A model generated the notes under the pieces. That model worked only from the letters and a program-made list of their open reading frames with translations. It was not told the origin of the DNA and did no database searches. Positions 18,937-54,709 of a DNA stretch of 64,000 nucleotides are shown piece by piece. The position numbers and the translations under genes are program-made. Origin of the DNA: Acetobacteraceae bacterium (GTDB taxonomy: Bacteria > Pseudomonadota > Alphaproteobacteria > Acetobacterales > Acetobacteraceae); contig JAMXLO010000088.1 in assembly GCA_024280945.1 (NCBI GenBank), forward strand, positions 62,001-126,000, in the 5' to 3' direction. Position 1 is the first letter of the stretch, and each line of letters begins with the position of its first letter.

Positions 18937-20226
18937 TTACATCCAGTATTGCCAGATCCGGGCATCCAGTTCGCGCATCCGCTCGCGCAGCGGACGATCT
19001 TCCCAGGCTTGCAGCGTGACGGCCCTGGACTTCGCCATGTCACTTTGCAGCAGAGCCTCGACCTGCGCGGCGGTATCGGCGCCGAGGATGATGGCGTCGA
19101 CCTCGTTGTTGAATACGACACTGCGCCGATCGAGGTTGGAGGAGCCGACAGCGGTCCACACGCCGTCGACGGTGGCGAGCTTCGAATGCAGCACCGCAGA
19201 CTGCATTTCGTAGATATGCGCCCCTCGCTCGAGCAGATCGCCATAAGCAGCGCGTCCGGCGTAGACGGCGGCTTCCACGTCACTCTGGCTCGGCACGACG
19301 ATGCGCAGGTCGATACCGCGGCGGGCGGCCTTGCCAAGATCCTCGCGCTCCTGGTGCGGCGGCACGAAATAGCCGGTGGATAGCCAGATGCGGCTGCGGG
19401 CGGCGCGGATCGCTTCCTCGAGCGAGATGTAATAGTGCGGCTGATCGTCGCCAGGAGCGCTGCCGATGATGCGAACGGTCTGCACGCCCTGACGCGGCAG
19501 CGGCGGGAAGTAGTTGGCGCGACGTACCGGATCGCCATTCTGCTGTTTCCAGGTGGCGAAGAACAGGCGCTGCAGTTCCGCCACAGCGGGCCCACGGATC
19601 TCGACCGCGGTGTCGCGCCAGTAGGCGTATCGCGTGTCACCGTTGGGCGGGATGCCTGCGGAGGTCGGATTCTCGTAAACGCGCGAGAGGTTGATGCCAC
19701 CGGTGAAGCCGATCCGTCCGTCCACTACCATGATTTTGCGATGGTCGCGGTCGTTGGCATGCAGCAGTGTAACAGGGTTGATAGGGTGATAGGTCAGCAC
19801 GATCGCTCCGGCACGACGGAGCGCATCGAACAGTTCACCCGGTGTGGTCTGTGAACCGTAAGCGTCGTAAATGACGTTCACCGCCACGCCGCGGTTCAGC
19901 TTGTCGATCAGCAGGTCGGAGAGATGAATGCCGCCGACTTCGACATCTTCGAAGATGAAATACTCGAGGTTGATGTGGTCGCGTGCCGCAGCCACTGCCT
20001 GGAACATCGCCGGTAAAGCTTGCGCGCCGTCCATCAACAGCCGGGTCTGATTGCCGAATACCAGCGATCCGTCGGACAACGCCCGCTGTGTCGTATAATG
20101 GCGCTGCAGCGGATCATCCGGCGTGGCCAGATACCTGTCGATGTCAGGGATTGATGCACACCCCTGGAGCGCCGCAGCGGCACCAAGCGAGAGCAGCCGC
20201 CGACGGCTGGGTACGGCATGGAGCAT
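18937..20226 (-). CDS. phospholipase D-family lipoprotein, cardiolipin synthase-like
   Basis: Probable phosphatidyl transferase or phospholipase of 429 residues. A lipobox (AALQGC) follows a Tat- or Sec-like stretch (SRRRLLSLGAAAALQG), so the protein is likely membrane-anchored on the outside. Two HKD motifs are intact: HRKIMVVDGRIGFTGGIN near the middle and HSKLATVDGVWTAVGSSNLDRRS in the C-terminal half. The GSSNLDRRS ending and pairing of motifs match cardiolipin synthases (ClsB/ClsC-like), but cardiolipin synthase with a lipoprotein signal is unusual. The ATG at 20226 was chosen. A TTG at 20247 is also in frame. Confidence 0.85.
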   Translation of the reverse strand: MLHAVPSRRRLLSLGAAAALQGCASIPDIDRYLATPDDPLQRHYTTQRALSDGSLVFGNQTRLLMDGAQALPAMFQAVAAARDHINLEYFIFEDVEVGGIHLSDLLIDKLNRGVAVNVIYDAYGSQTTPGELFDALRRAGAIVLTYHPINPVTLLHANDRDHRKIMVVDGRIGFTGGINLSRVYENPTSAGIPPNGDTRYAYWRDTAVEIRGPAVAELQRLFFATWKQQNGDPVRRANYFPPLPRQGVQTVRIIGSAPGDDQPHYYISLEEAIRAARSRIWLSTGYFVPPHQEREDLGKAARRGIDLRIVVPSQSDVEAAVYAGRAAYGDLLERGAHIYEMQSAVLHSKLATVDGVWTAVGSSNLDRRSVVFNNEVDAIILGADTAAQVEALLQSDMAKSRAVTLQAWEDRPLRERMRELDARIWQYWM

Positions 20227-20318: not shown

Positions 20319-21893
20319 TCACGGCGCCCGAGCCGCGCTACCCTTACCCGCTGGAGTTGTGGCGAATTGCCGCAAATCCTCGAACAGCGCCTGATCGTTG
20401 ATGATACGCGGGACCTTGTGTTGGCCGCCGAGTTGTCCGCGCTGCTTCATCCACGCAGCGAAAGTGCCGCGATGAATGGCTATCACCTCCGGTGGTCGGA
20501 GACCGAAGCCACGGCACCGGTGTGCACGGTAGTCGTCATTTCGTCTGCTCAGGCCGGAGTCCAGCGCCTGAGCGAATGCCTCGATCTGGTGGGAACCCGG
20601 CGCAGGAGCGTTGAATTCCACAACGAAGGCATGACCGCCCCTTGAGTCGCTGACGTCGGGAAACACCGCGCCGGCGGCGAAGTCGGCCACGTTGGCGCCA
20701 ATCGCTTCGGCTGCCTGGCTGATCGCGTGCTCGATTTCTTCGCCGGTGAGATGCTCGCCGAATGCTGACAGGAAATAAGTCAGCCGGCCGGTGAACAGCA
20801 GCCGCGGCGGATGCAGGTCCAGGAAGCGGATGGTGTCGCCAACGACGTAGGCCCATAGCCCGGCGCAGCTGCTGACAACCAACGCGTAGTTCACACCTGT
20901 CTGTATATCGGCAAGCCAGCAGCGCGTCGGATTGTCATGCGACAGCTCGTCTGGACGGACAAATTCATAGAACAGGCCGTTGTCTACATTCAGGCGCATG
21001 CCGGCCCCAGAGCCACGGTCGGCAATTGCAAAGAAGCCCTCACTTGCCGGATAGACTTCGCGCAACTCGGCAGAACTGCCCCGCAGCAGCTCGGTGAACT
21101 GATGTTGATAGGGCATAAAGTTCACACCACCATGCACCAGCAATTCGAGGTTTGGAAACACGTCATGCAGGCGTGCTGGCATATCGACGCTCAACGCGAA
21201 CAGCCGCTCAAAGAAGATCAGCAGCCAACTCGGTGTGCCGCTGATTGCGCGAATGTCCTGCTGCTGGCAGGCATGCGCGAGTTTTTCCACCTTCTCTTCC
21301 CAGTCGGCGATCAGTGCGAGCTTGCGCGGAGGAAATGAGTAGCGCTGCGCCCACCAGGGGACCTGGCTCGCGGCGATGCCGCTCAGATCGCCGGCACGTA
21401 TGCGCGGCGCAAGTTGCGTCAGATCCGTGCTACCGCCGAGCATGAAGCTCTTGCCCGCGAGCACGCGGCTTTTCGGTCGGTTTGCGATGTGCTGCACCAG
21501 GATGTCGATCGCGGCCCATGCATTCGCACGATTCATCTCAACCGAGCATGGAATGTACTTGGTCGTTCCGCTGGTCGTGCCGGAGGAGAGGGCAAAGAAT
21601 GGGATAGTCCCGGGCCACGTGCAGTCGACCAGCCGAGGGAAACTCGACTGCCAGTAGATCTGCCACATATCCTCGTAACGTCGCAGCCTGACCCGGTCCT
21701 GGAAATCACGCACCGACCGCACGGAAGCGAAGTCATGGTCCTGGCCAAAGCGCGTATTGCGCGCGCGATCCACAAGGCGCAGCAGCTGGCGTTGTTGTTC
21801 AGCGACAGGGTCTTGCCGCGCCAACTGTGTGAGGCGGTGTCGGGCGTAGCGACGGAGCAGTGGCGTTGCATCGAATGGCACGCCGACCGTCAT
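20319..21893 (-). CDS. GH3-family acyl-adenylate-forming amide synthetase-like protein
   Basis: Member of the GH3 (auxin-responsive) superfamily, whose plant members join acyl acids to amino acids through an acyl-AMP intermediate. The 524 residues contain the nucleotide motif FALSSGTTSGTTKYIPCS (motif 1), a YPASEGFFAI segment (motif 2) and VVGDTIRFLDLHPPRLLFTGRLTYFLSAFGEHLTGEEIEHAI (motif 3 and C-terminal domain hinge). These line up with the GH3 fold. The start at 21893 overlaps the stop of the upstream acylase gene by ATGA, which fixes it. Bacterial GH3 substrates are largely unknown. The coupled amidase suggests an N-acyl compound. Confidence 0.85.
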   Translation of the reverse strand: MTVGVPFDATPLLRRYARHRLTQLARQDPVAEQQRQLLRLVDRARNTRFGQDHDFASVRSVRDFQDRVRLRRYEDMWQIYWQSSFPRLVDCTWPGTIPFFALSSGTTSGTTKYIPCSVEMNRANAWAAIDILVQHIANRPKSRVLAGKSFMLGGSTDLTQLAPRIRAGDLSGIAASQVPWWAQRYSFPPRKLALIADWEEKVEKLAHACQQQDIRAISGTPSWLLIFFERLFALSVDMPARLHDVFPNLELLVHGGVNFMPYQHQFTELLRGSSAELREVYPASEGFFAIADRGSGAGMRLNVDNGLFYEFVRPDELSHDNPTRCWLADIQTGVNYALVVSSCAGLWAYVVGDTIRFLDLHPPRLLFTGRLTYFLSAFGEHLTGEEIEHAISQAAEAIGANVADFAAGAVFPDVSDSRGGHAFVVEFNAPAPGSHQIEAFAQALDSGLSRRNDDYRAHRCRGFGLRPPEVIAIHRGTFAAWMKQRGQLGGQHKVPRIINDQALFEDLRQFATTPAGKGSAARAP

Positions 21894-24127
21894 GGTTCGA
21901 GCCGCGTGACATGCGGGTAGGTTGCGCGCGCCGTCTCGGTGCGCAGTGGCAGCGTGATATACTTGCCCTGCTGCCACAGTGCGACCTGATCGAGAAAGGT
22001 CGTGCTGCCGAGCCAGCCATCCTGCCCGCCCAGCAGCACGAGATAATTGCGGTCGAGGTCCGACAGGTCGGAAATATGTCGCGCCGTTGAGCCGTAGGTG
22101 GTGGCATGTCTGCGGTTCGTCAGCTTGTGTGCCGTCTTCATCAATGTGTCGGCGCCGCCACCGGTCGGCAGATCGGTGAACGTCCAGGCGCGGCCGAGCA
22201 CCGGGACCAGCGCCAGCGGGTGGCCTAGGCGCAGCCGATGGCGGCTTCCCCAGGTCTCCTGCGCGCCGATGGCATTGGCTGCCTTGCGAAGCGCCTTGCG
22301 CACTGCGCGGCTCCGTCGTTGCGGATCGGCCGAGCGGATATCATCCCAGATAAGCCGCCGCGCTCCCCACGACGCGCTGTAAATTGCCCGCCGGCGTGCC
22401 GGCACGAGCAGGTGCGCCAGATGGTAGCACCACAGTTCGAACGTGAGGGCACCGCGCGAATCGCAGGCGTAGCAGCCATCCCAGGCCGCGACCGTATCGG
22501 CGAAAAGGCGTTGTCGAGAGCCGATCTCGGCATTGTCCAGCCAGGCCAGAAGCTGCTGGCGTTGTTCACGGGCTGGTTCCCAATGCGTATCGCGTTGGAT
22601 CCGTGCCACTGCGTCGAACGATGCGCGATCCACATGCGCGAGCAGCTCGTCGAGCCTTCGCTTTCGATCGCCTGCGGAGAACAGGGAGCCGATCAGTGCG
22701 CTGCACTGCTTGGGTCGCTCATTGGCGGACGTTATGCATGCATCTGGCGGATCGACCGTCTGTGGCAGTTCCGCACTGCCTGCCGGCGCGTCCCAGCCGT
22801 CGTCGGCCATCGGCCGGACGACGATGTCGTCGCGCATCCTGTGGCTTCGCTGTGGCACACGGACAGCCATCAGGCGACCGATGCGACCAGTAGAATCGGC
22901 GCACAGCATATTCTGTCCCGGAATGGCAAAGCCTCGGAAGGCTGTCTGAAATTCGTCCCAGTTGCGGGCGCGATTGGCTGCCAGCATGGCCGTACTCTCG
23001 TCGGACGGTAGATGCCCCATCCAGCGCAGTGCCAGCGTTGCGCCGCCTGCCTTGAGAAAGCCGACGTCCGATACGATCGGTCCCCATCGGCTTTCGCGGA
23101 TGCGGATCCTGTGTTTGCGTCCCCAGCGCACATTCAGTTCCGCTTCGCGCTCCTTCAGCCGCGGCACTTCCTCCGCCGGCACAGCGACGAGTTCGCTGCA
23201 GGATGCATGCAGGCTGGTGCCGCCCCAGGCGATCCAGGGATTGCGCCCCAGCGCCACGAACGGCAATCCCGGCAGCATCAAACCCGCAGCCTGGAACGAT
23301 GGCGAACGGCACACCGCAAGCAGCCAAGCGTTCGGCAGCATGATCCCGAGATGCGGATCGCTGGCGATCATCGCAGCGCCACTTGAACTGCGGGACGCGG
23401 CGACGACGAAGGAATTGCTGCCCGATCGCATGAACGGCGTTGCCGCCCCGTCTCGTGCTCCCGTCCCGCATGTCAGGCCATCGACAGCGAGCAGCCTGCG
23501 CCAGAGTTGCGGCCAGTCGAGGTCGCCGCGAAATCGGAGCAACTGGGCGCAGGGAAGCCAGCTGACATCAGCGCCGGCGAGGCGGCCCAGGGCGACGATG
23601 TCGGCGGCACACCATGGTTCTGGTTGCAGGTTGAGCAGTCTGAACTCCGCGGGCAACGGCCGGACGTGTGTGATGTGGTGGTTCAGTCCGGCCACGAATG
23701 CCTGCAGCCAGTCTCGCGTGGCGGACGGCATTTCGGCCAGGATCGCCGGAGCCGCTCGCCCAACGTCGAGCGTGCGCATCAGCCGGTCAATTTCGATCCC
23801 GGCCTGGCCAATCATCTCGGATACGCGACCTTGCGCAAGGCGCCGCATCGACTCGATCTGCCCGAGACGAAGATGTGCGTGTACCAGCCCGAGCGCGACA
23901 GCAATGTCGTGATCGCTGCGCGCATCGATATATGGCACCTGGTGATCGTTCCAGCGGACCACCACTGTCTGCTCAAGGGGAAGACCATGACGCGGCAGCA
24001 TCGCGAGTCGCTGCTCGAGTGGATAGGTGCGTCGAGAGCGCAGCGAGTGCCGCATCAGGGCGACGGCGAGCAGCGCGAATCCGATCAGCCTGCTCCGCGT
24101 CCTTCTCGTCCGTGGTGATCGCCGCAT
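21890..24127 (-). CDS. penicillin acylase-family N-terminal-nucleophile amidase
   Basis: Self-processing amidohydrolase (peptidase S45) of 745 residues. A membrane segment or signal (SRLIGFALLAVALM) leads the alpha chain. The predicted autocleavage and catalytic Ser is Ser237 in RSGSNSFVV, followed by the beta-chain hallmark MIASDPHLGIMLPNAWLL. Other S45 landmarks are LPGLPFVALGRNPWIAWGGT, the Asn of SANERP, and the C-terminal GQDGWLGSTTF. S45 enzymes cleave beta-lactam side chains, acyl-homoserine lactones or other amides. Here the overlapping GH3 synthetase gene suggests paired making and breaking of an amide. Substrate is unknown. Confidence 0.9.
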   Translation of the reverse strand: MRRSPRTRRTRSRLIGFALLAVALMRHSLRSRRTYPLEQRLAMLPRHGLPLEQTVVVRWNDHQVPYIDARSDHDIAVALGLVHAHLRLGQIESMRRLAQGRVSEMIGQAGIEIDRLMRTLDVGRAAPAILAEMPSATRDWLQAFVAGLNHHITHVRPLPAEFRLLNLQPEPWCAADIVALGRLAGADVSWLPCAQLLRFRGDLDWPQLWRRLLAVDGLTCGTGARDGAATPFMRSGSNSFVVAASRSSSGAAMIASDPHLGIMLPNAWLLAVCRSPSFQAAGLMLPGLPFVALGRNPWIAWGGTSLHASCSELVAVPAEEVPRLKEREAELNVRWGRKHRIRIRESRWGPIVSDVGFLKAGGATLALRWMGHLPSDESTAMLAANRARNWDEFQTAFRGFAIPGQNMLCADSTGRIGRLMAVRVPQRSHRMRDDIVVRPMADDGWDAPAGSAELPQTVDPPDACITSANERPKQCSALIGSLFSAGDRKRRLDELLAHVDRASFDAVARIQRDTHWEPAREQRQQLLAWLDNAEIGSRQRLFADTVAAWDGCYACDSRGALTFELWCYHLAHLLVPARRRAIYSASWGARRLIWDDIRSADPQRRSRAVRKALRKAANAIGAQETWGSRHRLRLGHPLALVPVLGRAWTFTDLPTGGGADTLMKTAHKLTNRRHATTYGSTARHISDLSDLDRNYLVLLGGQDGWLGSTTFLDQVALWQQGKYITLPLRTETARATYPHVTRLEP

Positions 24128-24402: not shown

Positions 24403-27400
24403 ATGCCGCCACCACGTCTCTATCATCTGCACCCGCTGGTCGCCGGCGCACTACCGGAGTGGCCAGCACATTTCGAACACTGTCGCCAGATGGGATTCGA
24501 CACCGTCTGTGTCGCACCGCCCTTCGCGCCCGGGGCGAGTGGCGACATTTTCATTACCGCAGATCACGAGGCACTGCACCCGGCGCTGGGTTGGTCAGGG
24601 ACTGCCGACGAAGGCATTGCGCAGATTGCGCGCTGGGGCGCAGACTGCGATCTGCGGATCTGGCTCGACCTGTCGATAGACCAGGTGGCGGCAGACGCGC
24701 CGATTCGCCGACGCCACGAACCTTGGTTTTCCTCTGGCGACTGCGGGGCTCCGCTGAGCCCATTGCGGGGGTTGCGCCGACTAGATGTCGCCTACGCAAG
24801 GCTGCAGCAGACCGACGTTGCCGAAGCGATGGCGGAGTGGTGGGTTGATCGGCTTTCACGTCTCGTCCAGGCCGGCGTCAGCGGCTTCCGCTGCCTGGAT
24901 CCCGAACGGGTGCCGGCCGCTTTCTGGCGCAGGTTAATCGGCGCACTGGAATCCTGCGACTTTCTTGCCTGGACGCCCGGCGTCGACCGATCTGCCCTGC
25001 CGCGTCTGGAAGGTCTGGGCTTCGATCATACATGCTCGTCTCTGGCATGGTGGGACGGCCGTGCTCCATGGTTCGTCGAGGAGTACGACCTGTTGCGCCG
25101 AATCGCACCGCCAATGGCCTCGCCTGAACCATCGTTCTTCGACCGCCGCGCTGCGCGTCTCTCGCCCGGCAGTGATCTGACTGAAGCCTATCGCTTCGCT
25201 GTGCAAGCGGCAGCTGCCGTGGGCGGCGGCCTGTTCGTCCCGATGGGCTTCGAATACGCGGCTCGCCGGCCGTTCGATGCGGCACTCGCCGGTCCGGACG
25301 ATCTGCGGCGCGCGCGCAACGAGGCCCCAGGCGACATTCCGCACGAGGTCGCTGTCGCCAACGCCCTGACGGAGCAATTGGCCGAATACCAGGTTGACGG
25401 TGAGATGCGGCAATTGACCACGGCGGGCGACGCCATCACGGCGCTGCTGCGGTCGAACGCACCGGACATTCGTTTCGCCTCGCGCGCCGTCCTGGTGCTG
25501 CTCAATCCGGACCTGTCGCGCAGCGCGCCTGTCGACCTAACGCTGTCGCCTTTGCCGCCGCAGGCTGGCACAGCGTTTGTGTTACAGAGTGCCGCGCAAG
25601 GTCACGATACGACGATGGCGCCCGGCGAGGTGCGCACCCTTGCTTGCGCCGTGACAGAACCGGTCGTCAGACCGCTTGTCAGCGACGAGGACTTGCAGCC
25701 GGCGCGAATGGCCGCCCGGCGGATCGGCATCGAGGCAGTTGAGCCGCAGGTCCCTGGCGGGTCTTTCGCAGTAAAGCGGGTTGTGGGCGAGGAGGTCGTG
25801 GTCAGCGCCGATATCATCGCTGATGGCCATGATGTTCTTGCCGCCGAGGTGCTGTGGGCTGCCGCAGATGAGGCGGGGTGGCATCGCGTGCCGATGCAAT
25901 TGGTGGTGAACGATCGTTGGGAGGGGCGCTTTGTGCCGGACCGTGTCGGCCGGCACCGCTTTACCATCCAGGCGTGGTGGGATGCCTGGGGCACTTTTCG
26001 TCATGATCTCGAAGCCAAGCACGCGGCGGGTCAGGTCGTGACCCTTGAGGTCGAGGAGGGCCGCAGCATGCTCCAGGCAGCGGCAGCGCGCGCCGGCACA
26101 TGCACACATACCCGATTGTCGATAATCGCCGAGCGGGTTGCGTCATTGGAGCCCGAGCAGCAGGTTGCGCAGCTGCTCGCGCCGGAGACGGCGTCGGCGA
26201 TGCGGACGGCGGACGAGCATCCATATCTCGCGGAATACAAGCCGCCGATCGCGGTCGAGGTGGATCGGCCTCAAGCCAGCTTTGCCAGCTGGTATGAGAT
26301 GTTTCCACGCTCTGCCACCGACGATCCGGCACGGCATGGCACATTCAGCGACGTCATCGCCCGGCTTCCATCGATCAGGGCGATGGGCTTCGACGTGCTG
26401 TACTTCCCGCCGATCCATCCGATCGGCACGACCAACCGTAAAGGCCGCAACAACGCCCTGCGCGCGGGTCCCAATGATCTCGGCAGCCCCTACGCAATCG
26501 GCAGTCGCGAAGGGGGACACGCGTCCGTTCATTCGGAGCTTGGCACGCTCGACGACTTTCGTCGGCTGGTTGTCGCTGCGAAGGATAACGGGCTGGAGAT
26601 CGCGATCGACTTCGCGGTCCAGTGTTCGCCTGACCATCCATGGCTGCGCGAACATCCTGACTGGTTCCGTTGGCGCCCAGACGGTTCCATTCGATTTGCG
26701 GAGAACCCGCCAAAGAAGTACGAGGATATTGTCAATCCGGATTTCTATGCCGCGGCGGCGTTTCCCGAGCTGTGGTTCGCGCTCCGTGATGTCGTGCAGT
26801 TCTGGGTGGATCAGGGCGTGCACATTTTCCGCGTCGACAACCCCCACACCAAGCCCTTGCCGTTCTGGTACTGGATGATCGCCGACATCCGCGGCCGGCA
26901 TCCGGATGTCATCTTCCTGTCGGAGGCGTTCACTCGCCCGAAGCTGATGTACCGATTGGCCAAGGTTGGTTTTACCCAGTCCTATACCTACTTCACCTGG
27001 CGCAATACCAAGCACGAGATCATCGAGTACCTGACGGAACTGAACGCGCCGCCTGTGCGCGACCTTTTCCGCCCTAACTTCTTCGTCAATACCCCGGACA
27101 TCAACCCGCCATTTCTGCAGACCGGCGGGCGGCCTGCCTTTCTGATCCGCGCTGTGCTCGCCGGCACGCTGTCCGGCCTGTGGGGCATGTACTCTGGCTT
27201 CGAAGTCTGCGAGGCAACCCCATTGCCGGGGCGTGAAGAGTACATGGATTCAGAGAAATACGAGATACGCGTCCGTGACTTTGGCGCGCCGGGCAATATC
27301 GTCGCGGAAATTTCCGCGCTCAATCGCATCCGACGGGCGAACCCGGCGTTGCAGACGCATCTCAACGTGACATTCTACCCGGCGTTCAACGATCAGGTGC

Positions 27401-27644
27401 TGCTCTATGGCAAACGCATCCCGGGGGCGCGCGACATGATACTGGTCGCAGTCAGCCTGGACCCGCACAATGTACAGGAGACCGGCATCGAGATCCCGCT
27501 GTGGGAGTGGGGGCTTGCGGACGACCAGTCGCTTGCGGCCACCGATTTGATGAGAGGCCACAGCTTTGTCTGGCACGGCAAGCAGCAACGCGTCCGGCTC
27601 GATCCTGGCGAGTTGCCGTTCTGCATCTGGCGGGTGGCGCCCTA

Positions 27645-27645
<1 letters not shown>
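24403..27645 (+). CDS. glgE: maltose-1-phosphate maltosyltransferase with N-terminal GH13-like pseudodomain
   Basis: Transfers maltosyl units from alpha-maltose-1-phosphate to the end of alpha-1,4-glucan. At 1080 residues it is about 400 longer than mycobacterial GlgE. Residues about 1-430 resemble a GH13 barrel without catalytic residues. About 436-620 is the GlgE N-terminal domain (RRIGIEAVEPQVPGGSFAVKR). About 625-1080 is the active GH13_3 part, with nucleophile Asp812 (FRVDNPHTKP) and acid Glu841 (LSEAFTRP), the same 29-residue spacing as in mycobacteria. NTPDINPPFLQTGG is also characteristic. First gene of a seven-gene operon; its stop overlaps the next start (TAATG). Confidence 0.93.
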
Positions 27646-30910
<3,265 letters not shown>

Positions 30911-30914
<4 letters not shown>

Positions 30915-33106
30915 ACGATGTTGTAGAACTGACTGGCCTGCCGACCGGGATGGCGGAGGCCTTGGCCGCCGGCGGGCTGGGCGATCCGTTCGCTGCGCTA
31001 GGACCTTTCGATACCGCCGCGGGGCGAATCGTACGCGCCTTCCTGCCTGGCGCGTTGGAGGTAGAGGTGCTGGCGCGTTCGACCGGTGCGCCACTCGCGA
31101 GGCTGTCGCCGATGCTGCCGCAAGGACTATTCGCTGGCCGGGTCGGAAGCGAGGAACCTTATCTGCTGCGCATCACCTGGCCCGGTGCCGTGCAGGAGAC
31201 CGAAGATCCGTATTCGTTCGGTATGCTGCTTGGCGAACTGGATCTGCATCTGTTCAACGAAGGTCGGCATTTCGAACTGGCCGCGCATCTCGGAGCCAAC
31301 GTGACGACGGTCGACGGCGTCACCGGCGTCCGGTTTGCGGTATGGGCACCGAACGCGCGCGCTGTTTCGGTGGTGGGTGATTTCAATAGCTGGGACGCGC
31401 GGCGCAATCCGATGCGGCTGCGCTATCCGGCCGGCGTGTGGGAGTTGTTCATACCGCGCATCGGCGCTGGCGCACGGTACAAGTTCGCCATCATCGGTCC
31501 GGACGGTTTTCAGCTTCCATTCAAGGCCGATCCGTTGGCCCGCGCGACCGAGGCGCCGCCGGCCACCGCTTCGGTGGTCATGGACCCTGCACCGTTCGCC
31601 TGGCACGATGAAACCTGGATGCAGCACCGCCGCCGCCACCACGCCACTGACGCGCCGATCACCATCTACGAGATGCACGCCGCATCATGGTTTCATCCGG
31701 AAGGTCGGATTCCGACGTGGGATGAGTTGGCGGAGCGTCTGGTACCCTATGTCAGTGAGATGGGCTTCACGCATATCGAGCTGATGCCGGTGGCCGAGCA
31801 TCCATTTGGGGGCTCCTGGGGGTATCAACCGCTCAGCTTGTTCGCGCCCAGTGCGCGGTTCGGCCCACCCGAAGGCTTTGCCCGTTTCGTCGATGCCTGC
31901 CACCGCGCTGATATCGGCGTCCTGGTGGACTGGGTGCCGGCACATTTCCCGACCGATGCGCATGGTCTGGCGCGGTTCGACGGCACGGCCCTGTATGAGC
32001 ACCAGGACCCGCGCGAGGGATACCATCAGGACTGGAACACTTATATCTACAACTTTGGCCGACGGGAGGTGCAGGGATTCCTCATCGCCTCAGGGCTCTA
32101 TTGGCTGGAGCAGTTCCATGTCGATGGACTGCGCGTCGACGCTGTGGCGTCGATGCTGTATCGCGACTACTCGCGTGCCGAGGGGCAGTGGATCCCCAAC
32201 ATCTACGGCGGACGCGAGAACCTGGAGGCGATTGGCTTTCTGCGCCACTTCAACGCGGTTGTCGGCGAGCGCTGTGCCGGTGCCATTACCATTGCCGAGG
32301 AGTCCACTGCATGGCCTGGCGTGTCGCGTCCGATCAGCGAGGGCGGACTTGGCTTCTGGTACAAGTGGAACATGGGCTGGATGCACGACACGCTCCGCTA
32401 CATTGAATATGATCCGGTGCATCGGCACTGGCACCACAACGACATGACGTTTGGCCTGCTGTATGCCTTCTCGGAGAACTTTGTCCTGCCGCTGTCACAT
32501 GACGAGGTGGTGTACGGAAAGCACTCACTGATCGGCAAAATGCCGGGCGACAACTGGCAGCGTTTTGCCAACCTGCGTAGCTATTTCGGCTATATGTGGG
32601 GCCATCCCGGCAAGAAGCTACTGTTCATGGGCGGCGAGATCGCACAGGAACATGAATGGAGTCACGACGGCGAGATCGACTGGACGGCACTCGGCAATCC
32701 GCTGCAACTCGGCATCCAGCGGCTGGTGCGCGATCTGAACCGCATTTACGCCGGGGAAGCCGCGCTGCACCAGCGCGATACGGTGTCGACCGGCTTTCGC
32801 TGGGTGGTCGGGGATGACACTGCGAACTCCGTCTTTGCCTTCCTGCGTTATGGGAATGACGAAGCCCCCCCCGTTCTGGTGGTGTCGAATATGACCCCCG
32901 TGCCACGGTCCGGCTATCGGATCGGCGTACCGCGCCCTGGCCTGTGGCGCGAACTGCTCAATACCGACTCCTCCTTCTATGGCGGTTCCAACATGGGCAA
33001 CGGTGGCGCGGTGCCGACGACGGCGGTGCAGAGTCATGGCGAGGCGCAGTCGCTCGAGTTGACGTTGCCGCCACTGGCGACGGTGTTCATGCGCCCGGCA
33101 AACTGA
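30911..33106 (+). CDS. glgB: 1,4-alpha-glucan branching enzyme
   Basis: Adds alpha-1,6 branches to linear glucan. The 731 residues have an N-terminal N1 domain (about 20-110), a CBM48 module ([23 protein letters not shown]), the GH13 barrel and a C-terminal beta domain. Catalytic residues lie in [18 protein letters not shown] (nucleophile Asp), [13 protein letters not shown] (acid Glu) and [12 protein letters not shown] (transition-state Asp). The YRDYSR sequence after the nucleophile is specific to GlgB. In this operon it branches the chains extended by GlgE. The start overlaps treS/mak by ATGA. Confidence 0.97.
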
Positions 33107-33115
33107 CCGAGACGC

Positions 33116-35209
33116 ATGCATCATCTGCCTGACGCGTTGCTGCCGGGCCAGGCGTACCCGCTCGGTGCAACGTGGGACGGTCTCGGCATCAACTTCGCCG
33201 TGTTCTCGGCACATGCCGAAAGAATTGAACTCTGCCTGTTCGAGCCTTCAGGCAGGCATGAGATCGCCCGCTACACGTTGCCAGAATATACCGATGAGAT
33301 CTGGCACGGCTACCTGCCTGACGCGACGGCCGGGCTGTTGTACGGCTATCGTGCCTACGGCAGGTATGCCCCAGAGCAAGGGCATCGGTTCAACCACCAC
33401 AAGTTGCTGCTCGATCCGTATGCGCGGGCGATATTCGGCACGTTGCACTGGTCGGATGCGCTGTATGGCTTTCGCCTGCACTCCGCCCGAGGCGATCTGT
33501 CATTCGACCGGCGCGACAGCGCATCATTCATGCCGAAAGGCGTGGTTACCGATGACTCGTTCAACTGGGGCGATGATCATCCCCCCGCGGTGCCGTGGTC
33601 AGATACGGTGATTTACGAGGCACATGTACGCGGGCTGACTATGCTGCGTGAGGACATCCGCCCAGCCGAGCGTGGCACATTTGCCGGACTGGCGCATCCG
33701 GGAATGATCGATCATCTGCGCCATCTTGGCATCACCGCGGTCGAGCTTATGCCGGTGCAAGCCTTCGTTCAGGATCGTACCCTGCAGCTACGCGGGCTGC
33801 GCAACTACTGGGGCTATAACACTCTCGGCTTCTTCGCGCCGGAGCGAACCTATCTGTCCAGCGGCTCGCCCAACGAACTGCGTATCGCGGTGCGCCGACT
33901 GCATGCGGCAGGTATCGAGGTGATCCTCGACGTGGTCTACAATCACACGGCCGAGACCGAGGAGACCGGGCCGACCCTTTCGTTTCGTGGTCTGGACAAC
34001 GCCAGTTACTATCGGCTGGAGGCAGGCGACGCGCGGCGTACGGTGAATGACACCGGCACCGGCAACACGCTCAATCTGTCGCACCCGCGGGTGCTTCAGA
34101 TGGTGCTTGACTCGCTGCGCTACTGGGTCACTTCATATCACATCGATGGGTTCCGGTTCGATCTCTGCGCCACGCTGGGGCGCGAATCGTACGGCTTCGA
34201 TCCGAATGCCGGCTTCTTCGACGCGCTGCGTCAGGATCCGGTACTGGCCAAGGTGAAGCTGATCGCCGAGCCCTGGGATATCGGTCCAGGCGGCTACCAG
34301 CTTGGCAATCACCCTCCTGGGTTCGCTGAGTGGAACGACCGGTTCCGTGACAGCGTCCGGCGATTCTGGCGCGCAGACCGCGGAGAGCGTCCATCTATTG
34401 CCGCCAGTCTCGCGGGTTCCGCCGATGTATTTGCGCGGCAGGGCCGGCGTCCCTGGGCCTCGATCAACTTTGTCGCGTCACACGATGGATTCACCCTCAC
34501 GGACGCTGTGAGCTACGTTGAGCGTCACAACGAGGCGAATGGCGAAGCAAATAACGACGGCCATCCCGCCAATTTTACCAGCAATTGGGGTACTGAAGGT
34601 CCCACGGGTGATCGGGCTATCGTGGCGACCAGGGAGCGGGTCAAGCGTGCCATGCTCGCCACGGTGTTCCTGTCCGCTGGAACGCCGATGCTGTTGGCTG
34701 GTGACGAGTTCGGCCGAACCCAGGCGGGCAACAACAACGCCTATTGCCAGGACAACGAAATTTCCTGGCTGGATTGGAGCATGGCGGCTTCGCCGCCGGG
34801 ACTTGCCTTGACCGAGTTTGTCGCTCGGCTGATCGCGCTGCGACGCGAGCACCCGGTGTTGCGGCATCCGCGGTTTCTGCATGGCACCGAGTATCCGACG
34901 GCCGGGGTCGCCGACATTGGCTGGTTCGACCAGCGCGGCGCCACAATGCCGTCAGACGCGTGGAACGATGTCGAGCAGCGCACGTTGATTTTGCGTCGTG
35001 CCATGCGCGGTCATGAAGGAGCTGCGACGATTCTGACCCTGTTGCTCAACCCCACCGAACAGGTGCGACAATTCCGTCTGCCAGAACCGCGTGTTCCATC
35101 GCGCATCTTGCTGGATACCGCGGTGCCGGAAGCCGGACAGCGCGAAGTTCGCGATCATGTCTCCGTTGAAGCGCATGCCGCGACGCTGCTGTACGCGGAG
35201 ATTGGCTGA
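33116..35209 (+). CDS. glgX: glycogen debranching enzyme (GlgX/TreX type)
   Basis: Hydrolyses alpha-1,6 branch points. The 697 residues start with a CBM48-type domain (YPLGATWDGLGINFAVFSAHAERIELCLFE) and continue with the GlgX/isoamylase barrel. Typical wording includes LRNYWGYNTLGFFAPERTY and VIYEAHVRGLTM. Catalytic sites are DGFRFDLCATLGRE (Asp), LIAEPWDIGPGGYQLG (Glu) and FVASHDGFTLTD (Asp). A late FGRTQAGNNNAYCQDNEISWLDW segment is diagnostic. Located between glgB and treZ, it fits the TreX role of supplying linear maltodextrins to TreY/TreZ. It starts 10 bases after glgB and overlaps treZ by one base (TGATG). Confidence 0.96.
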   Translation: MHHLPDALLPGQAYPLGATWDGLGINFAVFSAHAERIELCLFEPSGRHEIARYTLPEYTDEIWHGYLPDATAGLLYGYRAYGRYAPEQGHRFNHHKLLLDPYARAIFGTLHWSDALYGFRLHSARGDLSFDRRDSASFMPKGVVTDDSFNWGDDHPPAVPWSDTVIYEAHVRGLTMLREDIRPAERGTFAGLAHPGMIDHLRHLGITAVELMPVQAFVQDRTLQLRGLRNYWGYNTLGFFAPERTYLSSGSPNELRIAVRRLHAAGIEVILDVVYNHTAETEETGPTLSFRGLDNASYYRLEAGDARRTVNDTGTGNTLNLSHPRVLQMVLDSLRYWVTSYHIDGFRFDLCATLGRESYGFDPNAGFFDALRQDPVLAKVKLIAEPWDIGPGGYQLGNHPPGFAEWNDRFRDSVRRFWRADRGERPSIAASLAGSADVFARQGRRPWASINFVASHDGFTLTDAVSYVERHNEANGEANNDGHPANFTSNWGTEGPTGDRAIVATRERVKRAMLATVFLSAGTPMLLAGDEFGRTQAGNNNAYCQDNEISWLDWSMAASPPGLALTEFVARLIALRREHPVLRHPRFLHGTEYPTAGVADIGWFDQRGATMPSDAWNDVEQRTLILRRAMRGHEGAATILTLLLNPTEQVRQFRLPEPRVPSRILLDTAVPEAGQREVRDHVSVEAHAATLLYAEIG

Positions 35210-36942
35210 TGCAGTTCGGCGCAAACCTCCTGGGCGACGGCCGCACGCGGTTCAGATTATGGGCTCCGGCGCAGGAAAGCGTCAGCGTAGCGCTGGAAGG
35301 CGGCTCTGTTGTGCCGATGGCTCGTTCCCCTGACGGTTGGTTCGAGGCCGCATTACAATGCCCGGCTGGCACGCAATACCGCTACCGCCTGGCAGACGGG
35401 GTGCTGGTGCCTGATCCGGCGTCACGCGCTCAGGCGAACGACGTGCATGATCCGAGTGTCGTGGTCGATCCACACGCATATCAGTGGCGCAACACCAGCT
35501 GGCGGGGCAGACCCTGGCACGAAGCAATACTTTATGAGGTTCACGCTGGCGTTCTGGGCGGTTTTCAAGGGGTGCAACGAGAACTGCCGCGACTGACCTC
35601 CCTCGGCGTCAATGCCGTTGAACTGATGCCGGTCAATGACTTCCCTGGCAGGCGAAACTGGGGTTATGACGGGGTCCTGCCTTTCGCGCCAGACGCCGCC
35701 TACGGCTCGCCTGACGAGCTGAAGGCCCTCGTTGACGCCGCACACGATAGCGGCCTGATGATGTTTCTCGACGTGGTCTACAATCACTTCGGGCCTGATG
35801 GGAATTACCTGTCACTCTATGCCCCACAGTTCTTTCGCAAGGAGTGTCAGACCCCGTGGGGAGCGGCTATCGATTTCCGCCGGCGCGAGGTGCGGGATTA
35901 TTTTACCGAGAACGTGTTGTACTGGCTGACGGAATATCGCTTCGACGGACTGCGCTTCGACGCCGTGCATGCAATCCTGGAACAGGACTGGGTCGACGAG
36001 ATGGCAGCCACGGTGCGCGCTAAGCTTGAGCCCGACCGTCACGTCCATCTGGTATTGGAGCACCACAACGACGCCTCGCATCTCGAGCGAGACGTCGACG
36101 CCCAGTGGAATGATGACGGACACAACGTGCTGCACGTCCTGCTCACCGGCGAGAACAGTGGCTATTACCTCGACTACGCCGACCAGCCGGCGTGGAAGCT
36201 GGCGCGATGTCTGGCCGAGGGCTTCATCTACCAGGGCGAACATACGCAGTACACGGGCGAAGCGCGTGGCATGCCCAGTGCGCACCTGCCGCCGACAGCG
36301 TTTGTGCTGTTTCTGCAAAACCATGACCAGGTCGGCAATCGTGCATTCGGTGAGCGTTTGACGACGTTGACGGACCCTGCCGCCCTGGAGGCGGCAATCG
36401 CATTGCAGATCCTGTGCCCGCAGATCCCACTGTTGTTCATGGGCGAAGAGACGGCGAGCCGCACGCCCTTTCTGTTCTGCACTGACCATGGTCCGGAACT
36501 GGCAGATGCAGTGCGCGAGGGCAGGCGCAACGAATTCGCGAGGTTCCCAGCCTTCGTTGATCCTGCCAATCGCGCGCGGATTCCTGATCCGAACTCGCCA
36601 GATACATTTGCTGCTTCAGTGCCGCGTGCGGATCCGGAACGAGGGGCGGCGCGTGAACTCCTTTATCGGCGACTCCTGGAACTGCGCATGTCAGCGATCG
36701 TGCCGCGGCTTGCCGGAACGCGCTCACTCTCTGCCGAAGTGGTAGGCCCGAAGGCGGTGCTGGCGCGTTGGCGGCTGGGGGACGGCGCGGTCTTAACGTT
36801 GGCGACGAATCTCGATCGCGATCCGGTGGCAATCGACAACGCTGACGGGCAGCCGCTGTTCACCAACGCGCCAATGTCAGGCGGACAGCTGCCTGGTTAC
36901 TGCACCTGTGCATACCTCGACGAGATCCGAGCGGACCCATGA
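35209..36942 (+). CDS. treZ: malto-oligosyltrehalose trehalohydrolase
   Basis: Releases free trehalose from malto-oligosyl-trehalose made by TreY. The 577 residues comprise a short CBM48-like N-domain (FGANLLGDGRTRFRLWAPAQESV), the GH13_10 barrel (NWGYDGVLPFAPDAAYGSPDELKALVDAAH) and a C-terminal beta domain. Catalytic residues are the Asp of FDGLRFDAVHAI, the Glu of LVLEHHND and the Asp of LQNHDQVGNRAFGERL. The last two motifs are characteristic of TreZ. It is followed by malQ (ATGA overlap) rather than directly by treY, an unusual interleaving. Confidence 0.95.
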   Translation: MQFGANLLGDGRTRFRLWAPAQESVSVALEGGSVVPMARSPDGWFEAALQCPAGTQYRYRLADGVLVPDPASRAQANDVHDPSVVVDPHAYQWRNTSWRGRPWHEAILYEVHAGVLGGFQGVQRELPRLTSLGVNAVELMPVNDFPGRRNWGYDGVLPFAPDAAYGSPDELKALVDAAHDSGLMMFLDVVYNHFGPDGNYLSLYAPQFFRKECQTPWGAAIDFRRREVRDYFTENVLYWLTEYRFDGLRFDAVHAILEQDWVDEMAATVRAKLEPDRHVHLVLEHHNDASHLERDVDAQWNDDGHNVLHVLLTGENSGYYLDYADQPAWKLARCLAEGFIYQGEHTQYTGEARGMPSAHLPPTAFVLFLQNHDQVGNRAFGERLTTLTDPAALEAAIALQILCPQIPLLFMGEETASRTPFLFCTDHGPELADAVREGRRNEFARFPAFVDPANRARIPDPNSPDTFAASVPRADPERGAARELLYRRLLELRMSAIVPRLAGTRSLSAEVVGPKAVLARWRLGDGAVLTLATNLDRDPVAIDNADGQPLFTNAPMSGGQLPGYCTCAYLDEIRADP

Positions 36943-39020
36943 ACGACGAGGTGCTTAAGGACCTGGCGCGTCGTGTCGGCATCGCCGCTGAATGGAATGA
37001 TTTTGCCGGCCGCCCAAAACTCGTTGCGCCTGACGTCCTGCGCCGCATCCTTGATGCGCTCGGTCTGCCGACTGCGACACGGAGCGACCTTCTGCATAGT
37101 CGCAAGCTGTTGCAACGGCGCTCGACCGTGCAGACGTTGCCGCCACTCATTACTGCCACGGCTGGTCGTCCGACCCGTCTCGACGTCGGTGCAAGCGAAG
37201 CGGAGAGCGCGCAACTCAAGCTTGAGGGCGGCGGCACGCGAAACCTTTCGCTGACTTCGGTGCGCGGTCGACTGCGCGTCCCGGCGATCAGTGAGACCGG
37301 CTACCACCGGTTGCAGCTGGGCGACAGGGAACTGGTGATAGCTGTCGCTCCAAGCCGTTGCCACTCGATCGACGACACAGTTCCCGATGCTCGGTTATGG
37401 GGCATTGCTGCTCAGGTTTACGCGCTGCGCCATCCTGGGGACGGGGGCATCGGGGATGCTGCCGGGGTCGCTGATCTTGCTGCAGCCGCGGGCGCACGCG
37501 GCGCCGACGCGCTCGCATTGAGTCCCCTGCATGCGCTGTTCACTGCTGACCCGGAGCGGTTCGGACCCTACTCTCCTTCCAGCCGGCTGTTCCTCAACCC
37601 GTTGCATGCGTCGGCCGAACTGGTCTTCGGTCGCGAACTGGTGGGGGAAGCGCTGCAAAGCCAAAGGATTGATGGAGCATTCCAAGCGCTGGAAGCAGCG
37701 CAGCTTATCGATTGGCCGAAGGCCGCCAAGGCCAAGCTCCAATTGCTCCGGGCGCTGTTTGACGCGTTCCTGGAAAGAGTGGAGGACGATTGCCAACTGC
37801 ACCTTGATTTTGCCAGCTTCCGCGCCGACGGGGGCAGCCTGTTGTTCCAGCATGCGGTGTTCGAGACGCTGCATGCCACTCAGAGCGCTGATGGGGCTGG
37901 CGACTGGCGACGGTGGGCAACCGATCTGCGGGATCCGAACAGTGCGGCGGTTTCCGTCTTCGCGGGCTCGCACGAGCAGGAGGTGATGTTCCATTGCTTC
38001 CTGCAGTGGGTGGCTGATCGCTCGCTGCGCGCTGCGCAGCGCCGCGCCGTTGCGTCCGGTATGCGTATCGGGCTGATCGGCGATCTTGCGGTCGGCATGG
38101 ACCCGGCGGGCAGCCACGCGTGGAGTAGGCAGGACGAGGTTCTCGGAGGCATGTCGATCGGTGCGCCACCCGACCTTTTCAATCCGCGCGGTCAAGATTG
38201 GGGTCTGACCAGCTTCTCCCCGCGGGCGTTGGCGGCTGGCGGGTTCGCTCCCTTCATCGCGACACTGCGCGCAGTGTTGCGCAACACGGGGGGCATTCGC
38301 ATCGACCACGTCATGGGACTGACGCGGCTGTGGCTGGTACCGGAAGGCGCGGATCCTGCCGACGGCGCCTATCTCGCATATCCGCTCACCGATCTGCTGC
38401 GGCTGCTTGCGCTTGAGTCGCAGCGCCACCGGGCCATCGTCATCGGGGAAGATCTCGGCACGGTGCCGGATGGGTTCCAGGCGACGCTTGAGACCGCAGG
38501 GCTGCACGGGATGCGCGTGCTGTGGTTTGAGCGGAACGGGCAGGGTTTCGCCTCGCCTCGAAACTGGAGCCAAACCGCTGTAGCGATGACGTGCACGCAC
38601 GACTTGCCAACGGTGGCAGGCTGGTGGCGTGGCACCGATATCAAAATTCGTGCGGCAACTGGCCGGCTCGGCGCCGGCCAGAATGAGGAAGATCTGGGCG
38701 AGGAACGCAGCGGCGACCGCACCGCGTTGTGGCACGCCTTGGTCACGCAGGGGGTGGCCGAAGGTGAGGCACCGCCGCCGCATCAAACGAAGCCGGTGGT
38801 AGACGCTGCTCTGCGCCTTGTTGCCGTCACTCCGGCTCCGCTCTGCCTGCCGCCAATCGAGGACCTGCTCGGCCTCGAGGAACAGCCAAACTTGCCTGGA
38901 ACCGTTGATGAGCATCCAAACTGGCGACGGCGGCTCACACCCTGCGCCGACTCGCTATTAGATCAACCCGACGTTGCCCATCGTGTCGAGGAGTTGGCCA
39001 CAGAGCGGCCGAGGCTATGA
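36939..39020 (+). CDS. malQ: 4-alpha-glucanotransferase (amylomaltase)
   Basis: Disproportionates maltodextrins, moving glucan segments and freeing glucose. The 693 residues have an N-terminal extension (about 1-160, with HHE-like helices and a beta module) found in E. coli-type MalQ, then the GH77 barrel (WGIAAQVYALRHPGDGGIGD and FGPYSPSSRLFLNPL). Catalytic sites are the Asp of IRIDHVMGLTRLW, the Glu of VIGEDLGTVP and the Asp of CTHDLPTVAGWW. It probably recycles short chains left by TreZ and GlgX into lengths usable by TreY. Both ends overlap neighbours by ATGA. Confidence 0.95.
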   Translation: MNDEVLKDLARRVGIAAEWNDFAGRPKLVAPDVLRRILDALGLPTATRSDLLHSRKLLQRRSTVQTLPPLITATAGRPTRLDVGASEAESAQLKLEGGGTRNLSLTSVRGRLRVPAISETGYHRLQLGDRELVIAVAPSRCHSIDDTVPDARLWGIAAQVYALRHPGDGGIGDAAGVADLAAAAGARGADALALSPLHALFTADPERFGPYSPSSRLFLNPLHASAELVFGRELVGEALQSQRIDGAFQALEAAQLIDWPKAAKAKLQLLRALFDAFLERVEDDCQLHLDFASFRADGGSLLFQHAVFETLHATQSADGAGDWRRWATDLRDPNSAAVSVFAGSHEQEVMFHCFLQWVADRSLRAAQRRAVASGMRIGLIGDLAVGMDPAGSHAWSRQDEVLGGMSIGAPPDLFNPRGQDWGLTSFSPRALAAGGFAPFIATLRAVLRNTGGIRIDHVMGLTRLWLVPEGADPADGAYLAYPLTDLLRLLALESQRHRAIVIGEDLGTVPDGFQATLETAGLHGMRVLWFERNGQGFASPRNWSQTAVAMTCTHDLPTVAGWWRGTDIKIRAATGRLGAGQNEEDLGEERSGDRTALWHALVTQGVAEGEAPPPHQTKPVVDAALRLVAVTPAPLCLPPIEDLLGLEEQPNLPGTVDEHPNWRRRLTPCADSLLDQPDVAHRVEELATERPRL

Positions 39021-41557
39021 CCCCGCCACGCGCGACAATGCGTCTGCAGCTGCATCGCGACTTCACCTTCGCGGATGCGACCAAGCTCGTGCCGTACATG
39101 GCAAGGTTGGGCGTCAGCCATCTGTACTCATCGCCGATCCTGACCGCCCGGGCAGGGTCGATGCACGGCTACGACGTGACCGACCCGACGCAGGTCAGTC
39201 CGGAGCTCGGTGGCGAGGAGGGATTGCGGCACCTCGTCGCTGCGCTGCATTCCGCCGGCCTCGGACTGGTTGTCGACATCGTGCCCAATCATATGGCGGC
39301 CGGAGGCATGGAGAACCCATGGTGGGCAGATGTGCTGCGCCGCGGGCGTGACAGCCACTACGCCGGTTTCTTCGATATCGACTGGGACTGTGCCGACCCG
39401 GAACTGCGTGGCAAGGTCCTGGCGCCGTTCCTGGGTGAGCCGTACGGCGACGCTTTGCGCAGCGGCTCGTTAAACCTGGTGGGTGATGGCGGCGAGCCGC
39501 TGATTGCGTACTACGACAACAGGTTTCCTCTTCGTCCGGAGGACCACGCTGCGATCGCCACGGCGTCGGCGCATGCATTCGATCCGAAGACCGAGATGGG
39601 CAGGAACCGCCTGCACGACCTGCTGGAGCGTCAGCATTACCGGCTCGCGTGGTGGCGTACCGCGGGTGATTCGATCAACTGGCGGCGCTTCTTCGACATC
39701 AACGGGCTGGCGGGGCTGCGCATTGAGGATGCGGCGGTGTTCGAGGCGACCCATGCCACACTGTTCCGGTTGTACCAGGAAGGGTTGATCGACGGCCTGC
39801 GGGTCGATCATGTCGACGGCCTTGCTGATCCGCCTGGCTATTGCCGCCGTCTGCGCGCTCGGTTGCAGGAGCTCGCACCGGAACAGCGGCCCTGGCTGGT
39901 GGTTGAGAAAATTCTCGGCGCCGGTGAGCACCTGCCCGATGGCTGGGAAGTCGATGGCACGAGCGGCTACGACTTCATGGATCAGGTCAGCGCGCTGCTG
40001 CACGCGCAGGCAGGTGAGGAGCCGTTGCGGCGGTTCTGGAGTGAGATCAGCGGCCGGCCGGCCGATTTCGACGTAGAAGAGACAACGGCGCGGAGTGACG
40101 TGCTGACCCGATCATTTGCCGCGCAGCTTGAGGCGGTCGTCACCCCACTGCATGGCATTGCGCTGGCCGATGTGGCGACGCGAGATGTCACGCGTGCCTC
40201 GATTCGCCGTGCGCTGACTGGGCTGCTGACGCATTTTCCTGTGTATCGCAGCTACGGCCATGAGCAACGGTCGGATGCGCTGATTGCCGCGGTCGCAGGG
40301 GCGATGCACGACGTTGCGCCGGGCGATCGAGGCACGTTGGCGAGGTTGGAACGCTGGCTGGGCGTGGAGGCGACACCAGAGGTGGCGGTTCGCTTCCAGC
40401 AGTTGAGTGCGCCGCTCGCGGCCAAGGCGGTGGAAGATACGGCTTACTACCGCTATGGCGTTCTGCTGTCGCGCAACGAGGTTGGTGCCGATGTGCGCCG
40501 CTTCAGCGAAACGTCGGCCGAATTCCACGCGGACTGTCTGGAACGTCTTCGATGCTTCCCCGACGCAATGCTGGCGACCGCGACGCACGACCATAAGCGC
40601 GGCGAGGATGTGCGGGCGCGGCTCGCGGCGCTGAGCGAAATTCCCGATGAATGGGCATCCGCAGTGCACCGCTGGTTCGCAATGAACCATGTGCACCGCC
40701 GCGAAGGGCCGATGCCGGCGGCAGGCGACGAGGCGATGCTGTACCAGATGGTCGTCGGAGCCTGGCCACTGGCAGATGGCGACCTCGGCGCCTACACGGA
40801 GCGCCTGGCTGGCTGGCAGCTCAAGGCGCTGCGGGAGGCGAAGCTTGCGACCGACTGGACGGCGCCCAACCTGGAATATGAGGATGCGGCGCGATCGTTC
40901 CTTTATTCTATCATGTCTGACGCCGGGTTCGTCGCAGACGCGCGTGCGTTCGCTGACAGGATCAGTCCCGCCGGCGCGGTGAACGGACTGGCCCAAACCC
41001 TGCTTAAACTAACGGTGCCGGGAGTGCCGGATTTCTACCAGGGGGCCGAGTTCTGGGACTTGTCGCTGGTCGACCCGGACAATCGTTGCATGGTGGATTT
41101 CCCGTCAAGGATTGCCGCGCTGGGCGAAGGCCGATCGCCAGTCGAGCTCGCCGCAGGCTGGCGAGACGGCAGAGTAAAGCAGGCAGTGATCCATCGAGCA
41201 CTTGCGTTGCGGCGAGAGCAGCCAGAGCTGTTTGCGCGGGGTCGGTATATTCCACTGAAGGTATCGGGTGCGCTGGCCGACCATGTCGTTGCATTCGCGC
41301 GCTCACACAAAGGGGTGCAGTGCGTCGTAGTGGTGCCGCGGCTGTGCGCTGCCTTGTCAGCATCCCTCTTGCCCGGTGCGGATGCCAACGACGACCTTAA
41401 AGTGTCCTGTTGGCAGGACACGATGCTTCATGCACCGGACGAACTTGCCGGGCGCACTCTGCACAACCGTCTAACCCATGCTCATATAACCGTCGCCGAA
41501 GCCGTGCCGGTCGCGACAATCCTGAAGATGTTTCCCGTCGCATTACTCGCGAATTAG
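39017..41557 (+). CDS. treY: malto-oligosyltrehalose synthase
   Basis: Rearranges the reducing-end alpha-1,4 bond of a maltodextrin to the alpha,alpha-1,1 bond of a trehalosyl end. The 846 residues have the TreY opening MRLQLHRDFTFADATKLVPYMARLGVSHLYSSPI, the GSMHGYDVTDPT segment, nucleophile Asp in LRVDHVDGLADP, Glu in WLVVEKILGAGEHLP and Asp in TATHDHKRGED. The last is the strongly conserved TreY site. It is the last gene of the operon and ends 10 bases before the convergent minE stop. The ATG at 39017 overlaps malQ; a second ATG lies at 39038. Confidence 0.96.
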   Translation: MTPPRATMRLQLHRDFTFADATKLVPYMARLGVSHLYSSPILTARAGSMHGYDVTDPTQVSPELGGEEGLRHLVAALHSAGLGLVVDIVPNHMAAGGMENPWWADVLRRGRDSHYAGFFDIDWDCADPELRGKVLAPFLGEPYGDALRSGSLNLVGDGGEPLIAYYDNRFPLRPEDHAAIATASAHAFDPKTEMGRNRLHDLLERQHYRLAWWRTAGDSINWRRFFDINGLAGLRIEDAAVFEATHATLFRLYQEGLIDGLRVDHVDGLADPPGYCRRLRARLQELAPEQRPWLVVEKILGAGEHLPDGWEVDGTSGYDFMDQVSALLHAQAGEEPLRRFWSEISGRPADFDVEETTARSDVLTRSFAAQLEAVVTPLHGIALADVATRDVTRASIRRALTGLLTHFPVYRSYGHEQRSDALIAAVAGAMHDVAPGDRGTLARLERWLGVEATPEVAVRFQQLSAPLAAKAVEDTAYYRYGVLLSRNEVGADVRRFSETSAEFHADCLERLRCFPDAMLATATHDHKRGEDVRARLAALSEIPDEWASAVHRWFAMNHVHRREGPMPAAGDEAMLYQMVVGAWPLADGDLGAYTERLAGWQLKALREAKLATDWTAPNLEYEDAARSFLYSIMSDAGFVADARAFADRISPAGAVNGLAQTLLKLTVPGVPDFYQGAEFWDLSLVDPDNRCMVDFPSRIAALGEGRSPVELAAGWRDGRVKQAVIHRALALRREQPELFARGRYIPLKVSGALADHVVAFARSHKGVQCVVVVPRLCAALSASLLPGADANDDLKVSCWQDTMLHAPDELAGRTLHNRLTHAHITVAEAVPVATILKMFPVALLAN

Positions 41558-49590: not shown

Positions 49591-49593
49591 CCG

Positions 49594-51091: not shown

Positions 51092-51101
51092 GGGGAAGCG
51101 G

Positions 51102-51404
51102 ATGAACCTGACGCCGCGAGAAAAAGACAAATTGCTGATCAGCATGGCGGCAATGGTCGCGCGTCGTCGCCTGGAGCGTGGTGTGAAGTTGAACCATCCT
51201 GAAGCCATCGCTCTGATCACCGATTTCGTCGTCGAGGGTGCGCGTGACGGCCGCAGTGTCGCGGACCTGATGGAAGCGGGCGGCAAGGTGCTGACGCGCG
51301 CGCATGTGATGGAGGGTGTCGCGGAGATGATCCATGACGTGCAGGTCGAGGCCACGTTCCCCGACGGCACGAAGCTGGTCACCGTGCACGCGCCGATCCG
51401 ATGA
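51102..51404 (+). CDS. ureA: urease subunit gamma
   Basis: Smallest structural subunit of urease, 100 residues, typical length. It begins [39 protein letters not shown]. It also contains [57 protein letters not shown], a near-universal UreA sequence. AGGGGAAGCGG precedes the ATG. A REP-like element lies between it and ureB. Confidence 0.97.
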
Positions 51405-51425
51405 GCGGGTTGGCTCGGTGGTTGT

Positions 51426-51485: not shown

Positions 51486-51503
51486 GCGAGGTGGGCGCCT
51501 GCG

Positions 51504-54601: not shown

Positions 54602-54626
54602 GGGCTGCCGCTGCGAGACACACATG

Positions 54627-54649: not shown

Positions 54650-54709
54650 GACCGCCGGGACAGGCCCGGTGGCAGGCTCAGAAGGCCGGGCTGGCGCTCG
54701 GAACCATCC

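Follow-up and report, generated by a model that had tools for sequence, protein, structure and literature searches.

The locus considered here raises the question of whether two enzymes of opposed predicted activity, an acyl-amide synthetase and an amidase encoded by overlapping genes, form a single functional unit. The window, which is the whole stretch of 64,000 nucleotides that was analysed, carries on its minus strand a gene for an S45 Ntn amidase of the penicillin-acylase type (21890..24127; 745 amino acids from an ATG start; identified by Pfam and a structural model) followed by a gene for an OlsH-like GH3 acyl-acid amido synthetase (20319..21893; 524 amino acids from the ATG; identified by Pfam, NCBIfam and an AlphaFold model). 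As the initial annotation had noted, the S45 stop codon and the GH3 start codon overlap in the sequence ATGA (21890..21893, minus strand), an arrangement that recurs among homologous pairs. Started from an in-frame GTG upstream of this ATG, the GH3 protein would have 552 amino acids; homologues align from the ATG instead. A lone ATGA overlap is frequent in bacterial operons and has little meaning by itself; the feature that exceeds chance is the recurrence of the S45-GH3 pairing. Of 50 adjacent homologous pairs, about 10 show the -4 overlap, and the intergenic gap is 2 nt or less in 20 of the adjacent pairs. The repeated overlap and adjacency across genomes support the proposal that both enzymes are made from one message.

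It is evident that the pair is conserved beyond this strain; the initial annotation had named a lack of such conservation as a refutation, and that refutation fails. Among 337 alphaproteobacterial genomes, GH3 is present in 44 and the GH3-associated S45 subfamily, cleanly set off by scores of at least 611 bits against 361 for the next match, in 53; both occur in 39 genomes, GH3 alone in 5, S45 alone in 14 and neither in 279 (P about 1e-33, Fisher's exact test, uncorrected for kinship). Counted from the lists at the genus level, 30 of 242 genera have both, 4 only GH3 and 9 only S45. The genes are adjacent, with S45 first, in 29 of the 39 two-gene genomes; the other 10 hold them non-adjacent, including two single-contig genomes (G192 and G205) in which they are unlinked. 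In 36 genomes of the window's own family, its genus included, GH3 occurs in five and the S45 subfamily (counted at >530 bits) in the same five, for which the chance is 1 in 376,992. Other S45 paralogues are widespread in these family genomes, and only the GH3-associated subfamily follows GH3. Moreover, pairwise distances of the GH3 and S45 proteins are correlated (r = 0.70; permutation maximum 0.15), with the species tree left uncontrolled.

A similar picture was obtained from 80 named GH3 loci, many of them metagenome-assembled. S45 adjoins GH3 in 49, upstream on the same strand in 46 and in other orientations in 3. Among the 31 loci without an adjacent S45, the upstream sequence is too short to judge in 12, so that S45 lies beside GH3 in 49 of the 68 informative loci. 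Twelve of the remaining 19 belong to a clade of mostly non-alphaproteobacterial genomes, most of which lack S45, and several genomes with an S45-less GH3 locus, including three of this clade, have S45 elsewhere. In a Hyphomicrobiaceae clade the subfamily is absent both beside GH3 and elsewhere in the genomes checked. Hosts of the pair include Azospirillum halopraeferens, Lutibaculum baratangense, Enhydrobacter aerosaccus, Faunimonas pinastri, Desertibaculum subflavum and a plasmid of Indioceanicola profundi.

Could the two genes simply travel together without a shared function? Their neighbours change freely and gene order is loose, as hitch-hiking would allow. The loose order nevertheless makes the kept pairing more telling, and co-inheritance persists where the genes are unlinked. 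Hitch-hiking is already disfavoured by the co-occurrence, and we consider it highly improbable. Functional linkage of GH3 and S45 is strongly supported. Of the recurring neighbours that the initial annotation had asked for, S45 and GH3 themselves recur, but no third gene is shared by the homologous loci, at which neighbouring genes were called with a simple codon model. The 14 genomes with S45 alone likewise share no neighbour, and no replacement partner was found in them.

What the synthetase makes is suggested by its closest relatives. The three Pfam domains of the GH3 superfamily (GH3, GH3_M and GH3_C) match its N-terminal, middle and C-terminal parts with 92.7, 49.4 and 77.8 bits, all over cutoff, and the AlphaFold model (pLDDT 87.7) has the GH3 fold, with plant GH3 structures as its top structural matches (TM up to 0.77). 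The sole NCBIfam match is NF052613, OlsH, a lyso-ornithine lipid synthetase, at 607.7 bits; this lies below the cutoff of 620 and the locus is without OlsI, and direct OlsH membership is not claimed. The same model is matched by all six members of the first GH3 alignment, and four further homologues score 545-614 bits. Two nucleotide motifs are conserved, S104-GTT...K112 (21558..21584, minus strand), in which S104, G105, T106 and K112 are identical in 50 of 50 homologues, and R278-EVYPASE-285 (21039..21062, minus strand), in which the same holds for R278, E279, Y281, A283, S284 and E285. S104 and S284, matched by motif without alignment to OlsH itself, appear to be the equivalents of OlsH S115 and S293, of which S115 is essential (PMC12493201). 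In Singulisphaera acidiphila, OlsH was reported in 2025 to join free fatty acids, including long-chain ones, to ornithine using ATP and Mg, with ornithine preferred; the acyl source is the free fatty acid and not acyl-ACP, and homologues outside planctomycetes may take other amino acids (PMC12493201).

These likenesses support an amide-forming enzyme, as first proposed from the sequence. Because the protein sits in the OlsH-like group, a fatty acyl amino acid is its likely product, more so than the conjugate of an aryl acid that had also been considered. The accompanying analogy with plant hormone conjugation holds at the level of fold only: identity to the plant structures is 17-18% and OlsH is by far the better model, and a plant-hormone reading was rejected on these grounds. 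Plant GH3 synthetases and amidohydrolases such as ILR1 do resemble the present pair in the GH3 fold and in opposing synthesis to cleavage of acyl amides, but the bacterial partner is an Ntn enzyme of the same operon, and the plant amidohydrolases are of a different family from S45. Long-chain acyl substrates are further supported by a desaturase-like neighbour in the non-alphaproteobacterial GH3 clade, where five loci (L030, L035, L039, L092 and L093) have a gene resembling a fatty acid desaturase either immediately after GH3 or with one gene between. Loci of this clade also often have a small conserved ORF just upstream of GH3. The window's own genome has a single GH3 match; tandem OlsH-like duplicates occur at two other loci (L131:8072-11237 and L129:19-3200), hinting at divided substrate specificity, and S45 is unlinked in both genomes.

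The catalytic residues of the amidase are intact. It matches PF01804 (Penicil_amidase) with 481.5 bits and is among five S45-family matches in its genome, one of them a short fragment. Its model (pLDDT 92.1) and its sequence both come closest to D-succinylase (PDB 7ea4 as the nearest fold), then to cephalosporin acylases, with AHL acylases further off. An amidase domain, a spacer, an N-terminal Ser and Asn, His and Arg partners characterize it as an Ntn hydrolase. The catalytic nucleophile Ser237 (23417..23419, minus strand) lies in a G-S-N site at the start of the beta chain, and S237, N238, H259, N469 and R491 are identical in 56 of 56 homologues. This conserved site suggests autoprocessing to two chains, with residues 218-236 (23420..23476, minus strand) as the putative spacer lost; in the model a low-confidence segment (218-232) comes right before the catalytic Ser, and beta chains in the PDB begin at the position of residue 237. 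In Faunimonas pinastri the S45 gene (L082:5781-7975) changes reading frame near residue 389, through a frameshift or a sequencing error.

Where the amidase acts is indicated by its N-terminus. The initial annotation had it exported or membrane-bound, and this can be narrowed to a membrane-tethered enzyme. In the window copy, the model's secondary structure has a hydrophobic helix of residues 5-30 (24038..24115, minus strand), a predicted membrane anchor or signal, in place of the lipobox-like site that 47 of 72 S45 homologues have near the N-terminus. Because of the lipobox in relatives and the helix here, the enzyme is probably held at the membrane, outside the cytoplasm. Compared with D-succinylase and class III cephalosporin acylase, the subfamily has the same Ntn fold and catalytic residues, but identity to the window protein is about 24%, and it is a lipoprotein or N-terminally anchored and tracks GH3.

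The S45 family includes AHL acylases and penicillin acylases, and the fold matches of the model include MacQ and PvdQ. The amidase might thus be directed at unrelated amides outside the cell, such as N-acyl homoserine lactones or beta-lactams, in quorum quenching or resistance, and share an operon with GH3 for other reasons. PvdQ-type enzymes do share the S45 Ntn fold, which can accommodate fatty acyl chains, but the window protein scores 21.7 bits against the PvdQ model NF051460, with a cutoff of 950. Its identity as such an AHL acylase was rejected on this score, and within the same genomes it is this subfamily alone, and no other S45 paralogue, that tracks GH3. Action on unrelated outside amides therefore seems improbable. 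Nor was any evidence found for the roles that the initial annotation had suggested, namely an N-acyl signal, a protected acid or the detoxification of a compound from a host or neighbour.

The reading that we consider evenly poised between right and wrong is that the pair is one unit, in which N-acyl amino acids are synthesized in the cytoplasm and cleaved in the periplasm by a tethered enzyme. The cytoplasmic OlsH-like GH3 would adenylate a free fatty acid using ATP and then join the acyl group to the alpha-amino group of an amino acid, which at first guess is ornithine-like. The membrane-tethered Ntn amidase would hydrolyse this product, or a lipid derived from it, in the periplasm and give back fatty acid and amino acid. 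We infer the fatty-acyl and amino-acid substrates, the periplasmic side, the direction and a substrate common to both enzymes. An enzyme tethered by a lipobox or a helix would be well placed for an amphiphilic substrate, and D-succinylase is an N-acyl-amino-acid amidohydrolase. The co-inheritance across alphaproteobacteria suggests that N-acyl amino acids or amino lipids are made and cut in a cycle not described before; no prior description of a GH3 and penicillin acylase pair was found in the literature searched, whose scope left most subscription papers outside reach, and the OlsH paper is without mention of a penicillin acylase or amidase (PMC12493201).

The comparison with the OlsH-OlsI pathway of S. 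acidiphila bears on this. In both systems a GH3-type synthetase, alike in domains and motifs, shares an operon with a second lipid-amide gene; in planctomycetes the partner is OlsI, an alpha/beta hydrolase (PMC12493201). The window differs in its below-cutoff GH3, in having no OlsI or OlsG adjoining, in the pairing with a membrane-tethered S45 amidase, and in a host that also has an OlsB or OlsB-like gene. S45 stands beside GH3 where planctomycetes have OlsI, and OlsI is absent above its cutoff (385 bits) from all 337 genomes, the best score in the own genome being 54 bits. The amidase might accordingly replace OlsI as an acyltransferase that builds a two-tailed amino lipid on the GH3 product, and Ntn acylases can transfer acyl groups. 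The export or tethering signals, however, would put S45 away from cytoplasmic acyl donors, its catalytic set is that of hydrolases, and an OlsA could be supplied by the OlsB that is present, so that we regard such a transfer role as very unlikely. An alpha/beta hydrolase gene next to S45 was also considered as OlsI and rejected, with 29.8 bits against 385. At three loci (L128, L136 and L111) an alpha/beta hydrolase gene closely follows S45, with GH3 elsewhere or absent.

Three points complicate the cycle of cytoplasmic synthesis and periplasmic cleavage. It would seem wasteful, unless regulated, to cut outside what GH3 has made; S45 must have a role without GH3, since 14 genomes keep it alone with no common neighbour; and GH3 is dispensable for ornithine lipid as such, because the genomes also carry OlsB or an OlsB-like gene. 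In the own genome the OlsB model NF052555 gives a nearly full-length match of 270.9 bits, below the cutoff of 320, and the gene is thus OlsB-like only. S45 is sometimes found without GH3, and alphaproteobacterial GH3 rarely without S45, so the opposite order is also possible. S45 would then act first at the membrane, cutting ornithine lipids made by OlsB or N-acyl compounds of foreign origin, and the freed fatty acid and amino acid would re-enter to be rejoined by GH3, in a deacylation-reacylation cycle of amino lipids. This order fits the use of free fatty acids and not acyl-ACP by GH3/OlsH (PMC12493201), the leading position of S45 in the operon, the smaller number of GH3-only than of S45-only genomes, and the presence of a PF13444 OlsB-like gene in 53 of 53 S45-subfamily genomes as against 223 of 337 overall. 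The PF13444 excess fits an amino-lipid link but weakly, because the gene is common in larger alphaproteobacterial genomes and the excess is uncorrected for genome size and kinship. PHO-box-like sites, a mark of phosphate-regulated lipid remodelling, are no more frequent upstream of S45 genes than in shuffles, and cleavage of ornithine lipid by an S45 enzyme has no precedent known to us. On balance we take the opposite order to be a possible but rather unlikely explanation.

Of the many bacterial GH3 enzymes almost none has been characterised, and the sole worked example known to us makes a membrane lipid precursor. The conserved synthetase-amidase pair offers a testable partner and product class for the alphaproteobacterial GH3s. 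The natural substrates of penicillin-acylase-type enzymes are a long-standing question, and for one subfamily a candidate role can now be named. More specifically, it is conceivable, though we would not expect it, that the pair is a dedicated amino-lipid cycle in which the tethered S45 breaks the ornithine-type N-acyl bond in the envelope and the co-transcribed GH3 remakes it with ATP and a free fatty acid. If so, the cycle would provide a breakdown route and, beside OlsB, a second route from free fatty acids. No enzyme that cleaves the amide bond of ornithine-type lipids is known to us, and the S45 amidase would be a candidate.

Other genes around the pair were also noted. GH3 is followed directly, on the same strand, by a PLD/cardiolipin-synthase-like gene (18937-20226; TIGR04265 248 bits, cutoff 290). 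Neither this gene nor the upstream GlgE has a match at 85 homologous loci, and both were rejected as a third operon member. Divergent from the pair is a long alpha-glucan/trehalose cluster of genes nearly head to tail (24403-41557), with GlgE, a long TreS-like ORF whose C-terminal part is kinase-like, and GlgB-, GlgX- and TreZ/TreY-like ORFs; GlgE alone of this cluster was family-searched, with Pfam domains over cutoff. Further along (47708-55345), ORF translations indicate branched-chain-type ABC transporter genes followed by UreC- and UreG-like urease ORFs.
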